A DNA stretch of 64,000 nucleotides from Metabacillus rhizolycopersici. GTDB lineage: Bacteria; Bacillota; Bacilli; Bacillales; Bacillaceae. Below the pieces are notes generated by a model. The model had not been told where the DNA came from, made no database searches, and saw nothing but the letters and a program-made list of their open reading frames with translations. The position numbers and the translations under genes were made by a program. Positions 27,655-45,174 of the stretch are shown one piece after another; positions within the stretch are counted from its first letter, which is position 1; each line of letters begins with the position of its first letter. The stretch spans positions 5,841 through 69,840 of the forward strand of contig NZ_JAIQUM010000020.1 of the NCBI RefSeq assembly GCF_020075705.1. The letters run 5' to 3'.

Positions 27655-28923
27655 CTAAAGATTCTCGACATATTGCCAGTTATTATTGTGACTGAGAAAC
27701 TCGCAATCTTTTAGGTTGACCTGTTTGTACGACTTATTAGGCTTCGTGATGTAGCTCCCATGAATATCTTTGATATACCCCATACCTGTCCCAGTAAATC
27801 CTGTAATATATCCAATTTGCCCATATACTCGTACTCGGTCATTCAGATAAAATCCTTTCAGTTGTTTCACATTCTTTTTGTTTCGCTTGCTCTCGATATT
27901 CTTTGTCTTCCGGCCTTTTCTAGCTGTGGCTTCATGCAACGAACGTTTTTTCTTACGAAATTGCTTGATATAGAAGACGGATTTACTCATTTGCTGAATC
28001 GTTTCTATTCTACTTATCGCAACCGCATCATTCGCATGAGTTTTTTCTAGTCCTAACTCTTTTCTTCGTGGTGTAGTGACTGACCCATACGTCACGTTAG
28101 CCTCCGGGTACTTTGTAAATACCCGTTTACGGAAGATATTCATGAACGTTCCCTCTTTGTATGACGGTAATTTTTTGCCTTCTTCCATCCACTTCCATAA
28201 GATTGCACCCTTTTGATGATTCTCATGCGTATGGCAATCTGTACATACTGTAATGAGGTTATCAGCTCGATCACTGCCTCCATGTGAACGATAAACAATA
28301 TGATGCGTATTCAAAATACCGCCCTTTTTCTTACACACTTGACACGTATAATGGTCCCTTTCGAATACAAAATAACGGACATCGTGATAGCCAAGTGTTT
28401 GCCCTTGTTGATACTCTTCACCTTGTATCTCAGGATTCATCATCTTCTGAATATCGAACTTACCTACTTCTATCGTTAACAGAGGATTGGATACAAGAGA
28501 TAAAAACGTATCGATCCAGTGAAACGTGTTATCTAGGCGACATTGTATACTTGGTGGTAGCCAGTTTTCGTGGCGCTTACGGTTGCCAAATCGCGGCTTT
28601 CGATATCGGCATTTTCGGTTACGTCTACTTCTTCGGTAAATACGTCTTGTTTCTAATAAACTCTTAACATCTTGACGTACTTCTACCTCTCCTTTGGCAA
28701 GTACCTTGTCATTGGTCGTAACCGCTATCCCTGTGTGTTTAGCACCTAAATCTACACCAACATTAATAGGTTGTTTGTAGCCACTACTTCCATATAGAAG
28801 TTGGATCGTAAATGGTTGATAGCTTACGATCTTTGCTTTCTTTTGTTTGAGCAAGAGTCTCGCTTTTCTTGGTTTGCATGGCATTAAGGCTTTCCCATGC
28901 TTATTAAGTACGAATACGAACAT
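27655..28923 (-). CDS. iscB: RNA-guided endonuclease IscB
   Basis: 422 residues, typical IscB length. Order of parts: PLMP-type N-terminus (GKALMPCKPRKARLLLKQKK, residues 10-29), RuvC-I GVDLGAKHTGIAV (Asp near 57), arginine-rich bridge helix RRIYRRSRRNRKCRYRKPRF, RuvC-II LLTIEVGKFD (Glu), HNH insert with CQVCKKKGG, NTHHIVYRSHGGSDRADNL and CTDCHTHEN, then RuvC-III THANDAVAI (Asp). All expected catalytic residues are present. IscB uses an omega-RNA encoded just upstream to cut DNA next to a target-adjacent motif; it is the family from which Cas9 evolved. GGAGGG precedes the ATG. The gene looks intact and could be active. Confidence 0.93.
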   Translation of the reverse strand: MFVFVLNKHGKALMPCKPRKARLLLKQKKAKIVSYQPFTIQLLYGSSGYKQPINVGVDLGAKHTGIAVTTNDKVLAKGEVEVRQDVKSLLETRRIYRRSRRNRKCRYRKPRFGNRKRHENWLPPSIQCRLDNTFHWIDTFLSLVSNPLLTIEVGKFDIQKMMNPEIQGEEYQQGQTLGYHDVRYFVFERDHYTCQVCKKKGGILNTHHIVYRSHGGSDRADNLITVCTDCHTHENHQKGAILWKWMEEGKKLPSYKEGTFMNIFRKRVFTKYPEANVTYGSVTTPRRKELGLEKTHANDAVAISRIETIQQMSKSVFYIKQFRKKKRSLHEATARKGRKTKNIESKRNKKNVKQLKGFYLNDRVRVYGQIGYITGFTGTGMGYIKDIHGSYITKPNKSYKQVNLKDCEFLSHNNNWQYVENL

Positions 28924-29181
28924 GACGTATTCCCTCCTTTTGGAGTTCGTTTCCCTTCGCCAATGTTGGAATGGCTTTGCGGTAAAACCGCCAAACTAGG
29001 TTGACCGTTCCTACCCATTTAGAACTATTACAGAGCCTACACAGAGCAACGGACTAGGGAATCATCCGAGGGTGTGATAACCATCCCAACGTAGTTCTCG
29101 TAAAACTTAGGCTAGACAACTAAAGGCTTTTTCAAGCCCCCACTTCAAGATTCGTTAGAATCTAAGTGGTGGGTAGTTGAC
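28924..29181 (-). ncRNA. Omega-RNA (HEARO) region of the IscB element
   Basis: 258 bp without an ORF between iscB and the element end, where HEARO/omega-RNA scaffolds are encoded in IscB loci. Minus-strand order: end sequence GTCAACTACCCACCACTT, a bulged hairpin (CCACTT..AGATTC-TAAC-GAATCT..AAGTGGGGG), several smaller helices, then TTTGGCGGTTTTACCGCAAA close to the iscB ribosome site. The guide should come from the flank just beyond 29181. The RNA call is by position and partial structure; no covariance search was possible. Confidence 0.7.
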
Positions 29182-41898: not shown

Positions 41899-43125
41899 TT
41901 AAACACCCTTTTCACTCTTCTTTAATCGATTTCTCATATAAACAAGAACGAACAAACTAACAAATATCGCATTGACACTTAAAGTCACGATAAATATGGC
42001 AATTGTGGATAATAACAATGTAACGATCGCAAAAATAATGACTTGCGCTAGTAGAATACGGAATATTATCTTCAAGAAACTATTTAGCTTATACTTTTCT
42101 GCGGTTGGATAAAGATTCGGTAGTTCCAATAATTCAAAATGCTTATATAAGCTCATAATCTGAATCCCCGTTAAAAACGTAAAAACAATAACAACGATGA
42201 CATTTCCAACCAGTTGATTATTGATAAAGGTTAGAATGACACTGCCAATCATTGTAAGCCTAATAACGATTCCAAAATAATCGCCTGAACGAAGAAACCC
42301 TCGTACATATAAATATTCATATACACTCTTTTGATGATACTTTACTTGCTGCAATATCCAGTCGAGGTACTTCCGGCGTTTTGCTGCTTTTTTCAATTTT
42401 GGTACATCTGTAAACAGATTTGCAATTTTATAAAAAGATTGCTTCTTTTCTTCTTCCTTTTTGATTAGTTGGTCCCACTTTATTCCTTTGGACTTTACAA
42501 GTTTTGAAAAATAAACATCATATGCCGTCATAAGTAGGAATACGATCAAGACAAAAAGATATTGCTCGGAAAAAATAAAAAAGATCGCAGAAGCATTCAA
42601 GGCAAATCGAACAAAAAAATCACTCCACTTAGCCGATGCCTCTGTAAAAAACCCCATTTTCCAGCTTATGCGTAAATTCCAATATTTTACGAGTAGAAGC
42701 AAAATTAAGCTATAGAGTAACACACTTCCGTTCGCAGAAATAACTTTAACATATAGTGGTGCAAACAATATGATGGCAACAATGATCACGAAGCTTTGCG
42801 TAATCATACTGTAGGAAAAAGCTTTTTGAAAATAATTGTTTAACTTATATTCCATCGGAAGCAGGAACATCATATCCGCTTCTTTCAACAATGTACGGAC
42901 ATTTGAGCTAATGACAATAAATGAAAACACAATCGTCATAATGATAATTGCTGGGAAATCCGGTGATATTGTTTCCAGCCATTTTGAGTAAGTTAATGCT
43001 CCACCTGCTGCTAAGAAGATAAACACAAAAAGAAGATGGTCATTTAACATATACTTCAGGTAAGCTCTTGTTTCATTTATATGATGATTAACCCTCTTTT
43101 TCCAAATTTCATCAATGCTCTTCAT
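41899..43125 (-). CDS. ecsB: ABC transporter permease EcsB
   Basis: 408 residues with about six to eight membrane segments (LLFVFIFLAAGGALTYSKWL; FPAIIIMTIVFSFIVISSNV and others), matching EcsB. With EcsA it forms an ABC exporter required for normal exoprotein processing, sporulation and competence in B. subtilis, and for RasP intramembrane protease function. It overlaps ecsA by 14 bp. Confidence 0.94.
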   Translation of the reverse strand: MKSIDEIWKKRVNHHINETRAYLKYMLNDHLLFVFIFLAAGGALTYSKWLETISPDFPAIIIMTIVFSFIVISSNVRTLLKEADMMFLLPMEYKLNNYFQKAFSYSMITQSFVIIVAIILFAPLYVKVISANGSVLLYSLILLLLVKYWNLRISWKMGFFTEASAKWSDFFVRFALNASAIFFIFSEQYLFVLIVFLLMTAYDVYFSKLVKSKGIKWDQLIKKEEEKKQSFYKIANLFTDVPKLKKAAKRRKYLDWILQQVKYHQKSVYEYLYVRGFLRSGDYFGIVIRLTMIGSVILTFINNQLVGNVIVVIVFTFLTGIQIMSLYKHFELLELPNLYPTAEKYKLNSFLKIIFRILLAQVIIFAIVTLLLSTIAIFIVTLSVNAIFVSLFVLVYMRNRLKKSEKGV

Positions 43126-43858
43126 CTTGATCTTCCTTTGTTAACTGAATATAAAGATCATCTAAAGTTGCATCCTTCATTCTAAACTGTTCCCTTAGCT
43201 GCATCAATGTTCCTTTAGCTCGAATTTCTCCATTATGTAAAATAATAAACGAATCACAGTATCGTTCAGCTGTAGCAAGAATATGCGTTGACATAAGGAT
43301 TGCCGATCCTTGTGTTTTTGCCTTTTCCATCATTTCTAATAATGAATTTATGGCAAGTGGATCCAACCCAACGAATGGTTCGTCAATGATATATAGTGCA
43401 GGCTCAATTAAAAATGCACACATGATCATAACCTTTTGCTTCATCCCTTTTGAAAAATGAGCTGGAAACCATTTTAACCTTTTCTCCATTCTAAATTCCT
43501 TTAGTAACGGTTGAAGTCGTTTTTCGAACATTTCTTTATTTAAGCCATAGGCCATTGCCGTTAATTCAAGATGCTCATAAAGCGTTAACTCATCATATAA
43601 AATAGGTGTTTCAGGAATAAAGCTAAACTTCGAGCGATAAGCTGCTGGATCATCCGCAAATGTTTTTCCATTGATTGAAATAAGGCCTTTTTGCGCTTCC
43701 ATTAATCCGATGATATGTTTAATAGTTGTACTTTTCCCTGCTCCATTTAACCCAATCAGTCCGACGATTTGACCATTATCTACTTCAAATGAAATATCCT
43801 TTAAAACAGGATTTCGTGAATATCCACCTGTTAAGTGATCTATTTTTAACAACGTCAT
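43112..43858 (-). CDS. ecsA: ABC transporter ATP-binding protein EcsA
   Basis: 248 residues. Walker A GLNGAGKST (about residues 36-44), signature HFSKGMKQKVMIMC, Walker B LYIIDEPFVGLDP and switch histidine in LMSTHIL. It drives EcsB. It is the first gene of the operon, divergent from hit across the 0.9-kb repeat region. Confidence 0.95.
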   Translation of the reverse strand: MTLLKIDHLTGGYSRNPVLKDISFEVDNGQIVGLIGLNGAGKSTTIKHIIGLMEAQKGLISINGKTFADDPAAYRSKFSFIPETPILYDELTLYEHLELTAMAYGLNKEMFEKRLQPLLKEFRMEKRLKWFPAHFSKGMKQKVMIMCAFLIEPALYIIDEPFVGLDPLAINSLLEMMEKAKTQGSAILMSTHILATAERYCDSFIILHNGEIRAKGTLMQLREQFRMKDATLDDLYIQLTKEDQDEEH

Positions 43859-44002
43859 TTTTTGTGGATCTCCTTTTTCTTTTTATCTTATCAAAATCAA
43901 ATACACTTGTCCTAATTGAGATTATTTTTTTTCGTATAAAAGACGATAAACGGGACATCATAATTAGTGAGGAAGGGATAGCTTGTCAAAACGAAAACCT
44001 TA

Positions 44003-44530
44003 AAATGAGGTGTTTGTCCCAGACAACTTTTTTGACTCAAAGGGAGTTAATTATTCTAAACCATTGAATGCGAAATGAGGTGTCTACGGGCCGCAATTCT
44101 CTGAATTAGACGCTCGCATTTTACATCATATTGTAAATGCAAAGACAACAACCTTTTATTCCTATTTATTGTTAGGCTTATTTAAACACTTAACAAGGGG
44201 ATGGTCGTTTTGGACAATGGTGATTATCACATCAGATAGCATTTAAATAAATGTTAAATGAGGTGTTTATCAAACGCAGGTAACCTTTTCTAAAAAATAG
44301 ACTAGTGTAACCATTCATTACGAAATGAGGTGTCTACGGGCCGTAATTCTCTGAATTAGACGCTCGCATTTTACACATTTTGTAAATGAGGTGTTTGTCA
44401 AAGACAAAGACATTTTCTCTATATTGTTAGGCTAAATAACACTTAACAAGGGGATGGTCGCATTGAACAATGGAGATTTCACATCAAATAGCATTTATAA
44501 CAAATGTTAAATGAGGTGTTTATCAAAGAT
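44003..44530. repeat. 253-bp tandem repeat, two full units and a partial third
   Basis: The 11-mer AAATGAGGTGT occurs at 44003, 44073, 44256, 44323, 44384 and 44509. Corresponding positions are exactly 253 bp apart (44003, 44256, 44509), defining units 44003-44255 and 44256-44508 and a partial third. Shared blocks include TCTACGGGCC, AATTCTCTGAATTAGACGC and AACAAGGGGATGGTCG. Unit 1 lacks about 10 bases at the place of the fifth 11-mer. Many copies are followed by a tiny hairpin such as TTTGTC-AAA-GACAAA. No ORF of note on either strand. Confidence 0.9.
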
Positions 44531-44568
44531 AATATCCCATAAACTTGAGTTTTAACTTCCCTTCTTCA

Positions 44569-44607
44569 GGAACAGGGTGATCATCCGATTCACCCTGTTC
44601 TTTTTTT
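44569..44607 (+). terminator. Plus-strand terminator between the tandem repeat and hit
   Basis: Perfect stem GAACAGGGTGA / TCACCCTGTTC with a 9-nt loop, then TTTTTTT on the plus strand only. Confidence 0.9.
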
Positions 44608-44751
44608 CGTTTATTATGGTAAAATACGGTTAACACTAGTAAAGTGAGACTCCTATCAATGGGTGTTTCTACCAATTAATAAGGAATAAACATGCACTAC
44701 AAATGATGCTGAAAATAGTTCTTTGAAAATTTTTTGGAGGTATGTAAGAAA

Positions 44752-45174
44752 ATGAGTGATTGTATTTTTTGTAAAATAGTTAATGGTGAAATTCCAAGTG
44801 CTAAGGTGTTTGAAAACGAGCATGTCTTTGCATTTCTTGATCTTAGCCAAGTAACAAAAGGTCATACGCTTGTCATTCCAAAAGTACATAAAGAAAATAT
44901 TTTTGAATTAACACCTGAAATTGCAAGTAAAGTATTTGAGGTTGTCCCACAAATTGCAAATTCAATAAAAAAGCAATTTCAACCTGAAGGATTGAACTTA
45001 CTGAACAATAATGGTGCACTTGCAGGACAATCTGTCTTTCATTATCACATGCACATCATCCCAAGATACGGAAAAGGTGACGGATTTGGCGCTGTTTGGA
45101 AATCCCATGAAGATCAATACACACCTGAAAAGCTACAAGAGATTGCCACTGCGATAAAAGATGGGTTGGAATAA
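44752..45174 (+). CDS. hit: HIT-family protein Hit
   Basis: 140 residues from the ATG at 44752 (GGAGG upstream); six earlier in-frame codons are ignored. Zinc-site cysteines in SDCIFCKIVNGEIPSAKV and the histidine triad in SVFHYHMHIIPRY are complete. It hydrolyses AMP-linked nucleotides such as AMP-NH2-type compounds. Neighbour of ecsA, divergent, as in B. subtilis. Confidence 0.94.
   Translation: MSDCIFCKIVNGEIPSAKVFENEHVFAFLDLSQVTKGHTLVIPKVHKENIFELTPEIASKVFEVVPQIANSIKKQFQPEGLNLLNNNGALAGQSVFHYHMHIIPRYGKGDGFGAVWKSHEDQYTPEKLQEIATAIKDGLE

Follow-up and report, generated by a model that had tools for sequence, protein, structure and literature searches.

What is encoded in the repeat-filled gap between ecsA and hit? 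In the 64-kb stretch of Metabacillus DNA analysed here (the window), an earlier note had described an 11-mer that recurs in this gap ahead of a plus-strand terminator. The reading we favor is that the gap carries an enlarged ortholog of a forespore RNA of Bacillus and that this RNA might act on ribosomes through Shine-Dalgarno-like modules. We assign this explanation as a whole, ortholog identity together with ribosome mechanism, a probability of roughly 0.42.

A predicted repeat-containing RNA between ecsA and hit

The gap is bounded by ecsA on the minus strand (43112–43858; assigned from its ORF and EcsA comparison, the closest protein being that of Metabacillus bambusae, 92%) and by hit (hinT) on the plus strand (44752–45174 from its ATG; assigned from its ORF and synteny). 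The exact 11-mer AAATGAGGTGT begins at 44003, 44073, 44256, 44323, 44384, and 44509, always on the plus strand, confirming the six copies previously counted; they fall within 517 bp (44003–44519), and none occurs elsewhere in the 64 kb. The exact 11-mer appeared 0.05 times on average, and at most once, in 100 dinucleotide shuffles. Allowing one mismatch still yielded six copies, a number reached by 4 of 100 shuffles (mean 2.05). The significance of the repeat therefore lies in its exactness and clustering.

A period of exactly 253 bp had been proposed. This spacing holds for the copies at 44003, 44256, and 44509 and for a repeat at 44185/44438 but not for a 67-nt repeat at 44059/44309, which recurs after 250 bp, and we thus state the period as 250–253 bp. 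There are two units, each consisting of a type-B M module, a type-A M module, a G module, and a further type-A M module, where M denotes the 11-mer (AAAUGAGGUGU) and G a second conserved element. Along the plus strand, M copy 1 (44003–44013) is followed by the type-B copy 2 (44073–44116; AAATGAGGTGT-CTACGGGCC...TAGACGCTCG, a possible pseudoknot), G module 1 (44195–44212), M copy 3 (44256–44266), the type-B copy 4 (44323–44366), M copy 5 with a small triloop hairpin (44384–44407), G module 2 (44448–44465), and M copy 6, also with a small triloop hairpin (44509–44532). Comparison of the units indicates that unit 1 has lost one M copy, which would have been the seventh: TTGTAAATGCAAAGACAA at 44131–44148 (+) corresponds to TTGTAAATGAGGTGTTTGTCAAAGACAA of unit 2 minus 10 nt.

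Upstream of these modules lies a sigma-F/sigma-G-like promoter (43934–43962, +), composed of GTATA (43934–43938), a 17-nt spacer, and CATCATA (43956–43962), as judged from the sequence and a logo of relatives. The arrangement GNATA - 17 nt - GGA-CATNNTA-AT is common 5′ of the first M, occurring in 59 of 75 RNAs (59 gaps after removal of redundancy, counting the window, and a further 16 loci that were fetched). Since the CATNNTA core served to find these promoters, only the flanking bases of the logo are informative; the logo leaves out 16 of the 75 RNAs (15 without a promoter match, one without M) and includes sites that by eye are misplaced (L011, L057, L059, L070, L083, L100, L101, L108). 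We take these sites to resemble the sigma-G consensus.

The strong plus-strand terminator reported earlier is borne out: a stem at 44570–44600 is followed by seven T (44570–44607 in all; −21.4 kcal/mol, z −5.5). It is absent from the output of a simple terminator scanner, probably owing to a loop beyond the scanner's size limit. With its start inferred from the promoter, the predicted plus-strand transcript spans 43966–44607 (~640 nt), and a 647-nt version (43966–44612) folds with z −7.5 relative to 20 shuffles. Promoter, terminator, terminal helix, and overall fold, together with orthologs that are experimentally known RNAs, strongly support the repeat-containing plus-strand RNA that had been postulated. 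The label "non-coding" is about right, with the reservation that the two G modules resemble starts of 9- and 15-codon ORFs, so that the RNA may not be strictly non-coding.

Orthology to S357/ncr1670/Bvs196

The earlier note knew of no described element of this form, a statement that does not hold, since orthologs have been published (PMC9147052, PMC3574147). As far as the available text of these papers goes, Bvs196 of B. velezensis is a 294-nt RNA from the hinT–ecsA gap with a reported terminator; it is forespore-specific, depends on sigma-F and mainly sigma-G, alters spore resistance when deleted, and is homologous to B. subtilis S357, written S547 at one place in the discussion (PMC9147052). 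The accessible parts of other sources describe ncr1670 of B. subtilis as a 256-nt hinT–ecsA RNA with 2.77-fold Hfq enrichment (PMC3574147), equate it with S357 (PMC4410918), and name Bvs196 once (PMC12456014). The window RNA is almost certainly the Metabacillus ortholog of this forespore sRNA, S357/ncr1670 in B. subtilis and Bvs196 in B. velezensis. Like them, it occupies the gap shared by hit and ecsA and has the same orientation as hit, and by sequence it has a sigma-F/G-like promoter and an intrinsic terminator. It also shares sequence modules with the Bacillus orthologs, namely the 11-mer, found in 57 of 59 gaps once near-duplicates are removed, and the terminal helix P1; a promoter-like site, M modules, and P1 are likewise present at subtilis-group loci.

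Length is the point on which they differ: ~640 nt predicted in the window versus 256 or 294 nt in the Bacillus orthologs. Among Metabacillus relatives the repeat number varies, an outcome the earlier note had proposed checking, with one unit in L005 and two in L003 and L007; across the aligned part, the L005 unit shares 100% (rounded) identity with the second unit of L003 and of L007. Because length tracks unit number in these relatives, we do not treat it as defining and regard the window RNA as a long form. Judged by sequence comparison, the Metabacillus RNA is enlarged relative to its orthologs by an internal 250–253-bp duplication. The subtilis-group gaps L025 and L031 further differ from the window in having three M-like copies each and no exact G module.

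In the literature found on these RNAs, a search that largely excluded subscription papers, the accessible text makes no mention of a repeated module, a terminal helix, or module expansion. No Rfam 15 family reached its gathering score on the window RNA (best, Aar, 29.6 vs 60), and the low-score matches were taken as chance. Forespore expression of the window RNA is predicted by analogy with B. velezensis, the sole place of sigma-F/G measurement in the text available (PMC9147052).

Conservation and copy-number growth

From 564 confirmed ecsA loci we retained 80 on genome contigs; 75 of these contain the exact 11-mer, always on the strand opposite ecsA. Exact M copies number 1–7 in 75 of 78 ecsA–hit gaps (77 loci plus the window; L002, L077, and L078 are left out, hit not being found on the contig). 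The three gaps without an exact copy are L062, L072 (gap length 0, mis-parsed), and L076, which has the variant AAATGGGGTGT instead. The L062 gap (Bacillus chungangensis) lacks an M module, an apparent loss. Tandem copies in variable number could suggest a functionless satellite or mobile repeat, an idea that we find scarcely credible: position and strand are constant in 75 of 80 loci, the core is near-invariant, and the terminal helix shows compensatory changes. Synteny and strand constancy rule it out.

Beyond these loci, the pattern AAATGAGGTGTNTNNNNNAG matched 126 of 299 genomes of the order, some single matches being chance (reversed control, 6 matches), and 12 of 161 genomes in a class-wide sample (reversed control, 2). 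All six of the latter with at least two matches have a sigma-G above the family cut-off, as do 108 of 161 overall; among the six with a single match this was so for four, the exceptions being G362 and G409. We used the cut-off alone here, given that the sigG-family search at E ≤ 0.001 matches all 161 genomes.

Fifteen of 23 fetched loci lie between hit and ecsA. Five similar ones (L096–L099, L110) have 5–9 M copies, nine being the maximum among the matches listed (two relatives). The ecsA–hit gap of L097 (1663–3537) holds nine M in three tandem S357-like genes, each having by eye a start-like site and a terminator; AAGGAGATGGT stands there where AAGGGGATGGT is expected. Second loci occur outside the ecsA–hit gap beside other genes in L081 (3175–3360), L083 (2900–3210), L102, L107, L111, and L112, and L105 has two copies, whereas the dispersed match in L106 is probably chance. 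Neobacillus and Priestia genomes are among those with second loci, and in L081 and L083 the second locus includes a G module as well. On these comparisons, module number is judged to have changed by three routes: internal duplication, as in the window, tandem genes, and dispersed paralogs.

A predicted terminal helix

P1 is predicted to form between a purine stretch directly 3′ of the promoter (GAAGRGGRA) and a run of pyrimidines immediately ahead of the terminator. In the window the two plus-strand segments are TGAGGAAGGGA (43968–43978) and TCCCTTCTTCA (44558–44568), located by folding and cross-species pairing. Across 48 of the 75 RNAs (L096, L097, L098, and L110 were omitted as having several genes, and the remainder lacked a promoter match or M), the 5′ and 3′ ends of the same RNA paired with a mean energy of −16.4 kcal/mol, compared with −10.6 for shuffled 5′ ends (8% of shuffles as good on average) and −12.1 kcal/mol for 3′ ends of other species. 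An RNA's own 3′ end had a median rank of 4 of 48, near relatives being among the 48. Compensatory pairs are seen across genera (GAGGUAGG/CCUACCUC, GAAGAAAU/AUUUCUUC, GAGGAAGGAGUU/AACUCCUUCCUC). P1 is weak in L010, L054, and L101, for which at least 40% of shuffles are as good, and middling in several other RNAs. We had considered the purine stretch as a stabilizing Shine-Dalgarno (STAB-SD) sequence, an interpretation that P1 replaced; its affinity for the anti-Shine-Dalgarno (anti-SD) sequence is ordinary (on average 32% of shuffles as good, 41 RNAs).

The M module and its possible partners

The M consensus is AAAUGAGGUGUYURYNNNAGRC. Tiny hairpins had been said to follow several copies; these can be drawn at 44003, 44384, and 44509 but are weak when folded in isolation (z −0.7, −1.2, and +0.2). 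Their conservation in relatives is also weak, with 67% of cells paired in 180 distinct copies versus 64.7% in shuffles. Changes on both sides of the hairpin numbered 52 versus 36.6, and none of 500 shuffles matched either figure, although the rows are related. A strongly conserved hairpin is thus unsupported, and RNAalifold, applied to 46 M-G-M segments taken from the non-redundant gaps, gave no convincing shared fold. In type-B copies, the sequence ACGGGCC ... GCUCG could form a pseudoknot: 18 copies average 9.1 of 10 pairs versus 7.4 when shuffled, and for 5 of the 18 at least 20% of shuffles are as good.

One explanation for M is an RNA site for a conserved forespore protein, which would make the RNA a multivalent scaffold or titrator. 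The near-invariance of the whole of AAAUGAGGUGU, including residues that anti-SD pairing leaves unexplained, and the small hairpin 3′ of many copies argue in this direction, as does the 2.77-fold enrichment of ncr1670 with Hfq. Given that the hairpin is weakly conserved (67% of cells paired) and that this enrichment is modest, near the bottom among the entries listed in the accessible part of PMC3574147, we consider such a site unlikely.

Substitutions in M point toward the 3′ end of 16S rRNA. The 39 one-mismatch variants with hairpin context comprise A0>G (15), A1>G (8), A5>G (7), T10>C (6), T3>C (1), and A>T (2); A>G accounts for 30 of these, at three of the four A's positioned opposite U in the anti-SD, and no variant falls on G4, G6, G7, T8, or G9, the five G/U residues of GAGGUG. 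GAGGUG is a 6-nt complement of the anti-SD, and AAA can pair past one mismatch. The A>G pattern fits a duplex with CACCUC-C-UUU and would equally fit any partner with U's at those positions. Counter to a ribosomal partner, the 18 variants without hairpin context (A5>G 7, G9>A 4, A0>G 2, A1>G 2, G4>A 1, G7>A 1, T3>C 1) have a G of GAGGUG replaced by A in 6 cases, versus the 7 A>G at index 5. All such counts for M and G take related species and paralogs as rows and are not independent.

Against 16S and ~2.9 kb of 23S rRNA of one genome (G006), the anti-SD was the top site for M (−9.5; next −8.6), and 2.25% of 2000 mononucleotide shuffles equaled M in pairing with it. A further point against a ribosomal partner is that the predicted unpaired probability of GAGGUG was low, 0.19–0.31, and no better than in flank-shuffled controls. 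A reading of M as a micro-ORF (AUG AGG UGY YUR) was rejected: the third base of AGG shows no change among the variants with hairpin context, and there is no Shine-Dalgarno sequence upstream (G 0–6% at −10 to −5).

M might alternatively be the repeated seed of an antisense sRNA acting in trans on spore mRNAs. Multi-target sRNAs usually have repeated conserved seeds. Bvs196 binds spo0A and sspN–tlp RNAs, its proposed targets, in vitro, and spores formed without it differ in resistance (PMC9147052); the binding sites published there (Bvs196 nt 74–131 and 109–124) fall off M, however, between M1 and M2, as estimated from the promoter of the related L031. In six subtilis-group genomes, the M complement ACACCTCATTT occurs 2–4 times per genome outside the RNA's own two copies, versus 1–5 for the reversed sequence, and full-length M-complement targets were dismissed as no different from control. 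A near-invariant 11-nt seed over many genera would also exceed the usual constraint from mRNA targets. We therefore regard antisense action through M as rather improbable.

A further explanation is that the Shine-Dalgarno-like modules protect the RNA itself, with parked ribosomes blocking RNases. According to a review, transcripts of Bacilli can be stabilized by a strong Shine-Dalgarno sequence that lacks a start codon, and M has GAGGUG with, by eye, no start codon at a usable spacing, much as the Shine-Dalgarno-like sequences of STAB-SD leaders (ermC, atpE, cryIIIA type) work without one. Those are mRNA 5′ leaders, whereas the window RNA is closed and stand-alone, with its own terminator and many internal copies; M is scattered along it rather than at the 5′ end, which P1 already sequesters. 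Such protection is quite unlikely to be the purpose of the modules.

The G module and putative micro-ORFs

The G module is AAGGGGAUGGU-N4-[U/A]UG-AAC; both window copies read AAGGGGATGGT-N4-TTG. The distance between module and start codon resembles that used in translation. The first would open a micro-ORF of 9 codons plus stop (44210–44239, +) and the second one of 15 codons plus stop (44463–44510, +). A search allowing up to two mismatches at any position and a start-like NTG at +15 yielded 80 copies, 44 of them exact. Their changes are confined to four positions: 21 at index 0, one at index 1, 13 at index 4 (G>A), and, at index 9, seven G>A and three G>T. The two G's opposite U in the anti-SD are those at indices 4 and 9, where G>A turns a G-U into an A-U pair; the four G's opposite C show no changes. 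The G>T changes at index 9 do not fit anti-SD pairing. By eye and without a tree, the index-4 change is found in about four lineages (Litchfieldia/PS06, V59.32b, C. stercorigallinarum, and one further group) and G>A at index 9 in about five (M. malikii, PS06, V59.32b/P. cavernae, B. dakarensis, and one further genome).

Without a start filter, and permitting changes at 0, 1, 4, and 9 only, the codon at +15 was TTG in 74, ATG in 6, TTT in 1, and GAA in 1 of 82 copies from 48 of the 75 RNAs. The ORFs after the 80 G copies specify 75 different peptides. A stop nonetheless falls 2–15 codons past codon 2 in 96% of them, versus 58 ± 6% in dinucleotide shuffles (0 of 200 as high), and in the same 96% when one copy is taken per RNA (47 RNAs), a statistic less decisive than its number since the rows are related. 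The micro-ORF product is evidently not conserved; initiation and early termination, that is, length and not sequence, seem to be constrained.

The affinity of G for the anti-SD is ordinary (36% of shuffles as good), and its 12 best separate sites in rRNA do not include the anti-SD; for variant forms the anti-SD ranked fourth (AAGGAG) or tied second (AAGGGGATGATC). Each module has one residue that lies opposite C in the anti-SD and is therefore unable to pair: in M the U preceding GAGGUG, which is nearly fixed, and in G the A at index 6, which does not change. In both modules this internal mismatch creates a nearly fixed AUG within the Shine-Dalgarno-like stretch.

The modules could also let the RNA act as a sponge that titrates a C-rich sRNA. 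The leading candidate is CsfG, which is co-expressed and which our sources describe as a forespore sRNA with C-rich regions under the same sigma factors (sigma-F/G). G modules pair with CsfG at −10.5 to −13.1 kcal/mol, no better than shuffles (15–66% as good), and M pairs poorly (−5.7; 71–85% as good); better-than-chance pairing was thus lacking at the six loci compared, leaving a CsfG sponge very unlikely. The RoxS sponge RNA, presumably RosA/S345, offers a precedent. It is a Bacillus RNA that acts on a non-mRNA RNA, in that case a C-rich sRNA, in the accessible text of PMC8216469; M, by contrast, does not fit CsfG.

CsfG presumably lies at ylbG–ylbH, where the RF00516 match is also located. 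At L084, L086, L087, L089, L093, and L095, the "ylbH leader" strand of RF00516 starts with an A-run and hairpin, and the opposite strand ends with a hairpin and T-run; transcription of the RNA at these loci, presumably CsfG, thus seems to run against the orientation of the Rfam model.

A possible ribosome-directed role

Among the functions raised for this RNA, the earlier note had named a structured RNA, a protein target, and a sponge; the role most favored by the sequence is one it had not proposed, directed at ribosomes. Most internal substitutions in M and G preserve pairing with the 16S 3′ end, and the substitution patterns are best matched by a mechanism that targets ribosomes, with protein binding and mRNA targeting as alternatives. 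In such a mechanism, the closed RNA would present several imperfect Shine-Dalgarno-like sites to the 16S rRNA 3′ end. The G sites might load ribosomes onto throw-away micro-ORFs, and the M sites might pair with the anti-SD without a usable start codon. In the forespore, 30S subunits could thereby be engaged or retained by the RNA, so that translation capacity would be tuned or stored toward dormancy; on this view, modules would have been gained repeatedly under selection for additional binding sites. We hold 30S engagement through Shine-Dalgarno mimics only tentatively, at somewhat less than an even chance. The subtilis-group RNAs L025 and L031, which lack an exact G module, count against it.

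Doubtful, at this stage, is a broader generalization in which the S357 family would be a widespread class of endospore RNAs, closed and long-lived, whose 1–9 Shine-Dalgarno mimics capture 30S subunits by the anti-SD tail and silence or store them, the modules having been expanded by several routes in Bacillales. A 2024 ribosome-profiling paper terms the adaptation mechanisms "not well understood" in its accessible text (PMC11339384). For the shutdown and preservation of translation in developing spores, a forespore RNA that is conserved across Bacillaceae and carries repeated modules resembling ribosome sites would be a directly testable candidate. M, G, and P1 also provide a sequence signature for finding the S357 family in new genomes, where no Rfam model matched.

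Elsewhere in the window, a HEARO RNA (RF02033, 109 bits) at 28945–29181 on the minus strand lies directly upstream of a 422-aa ORF on the same strand (27655–28923). By eye the ORF resembles an HNH-type protein, which together with the RF02033 match suggests a HEARO RNA–ORF unit.
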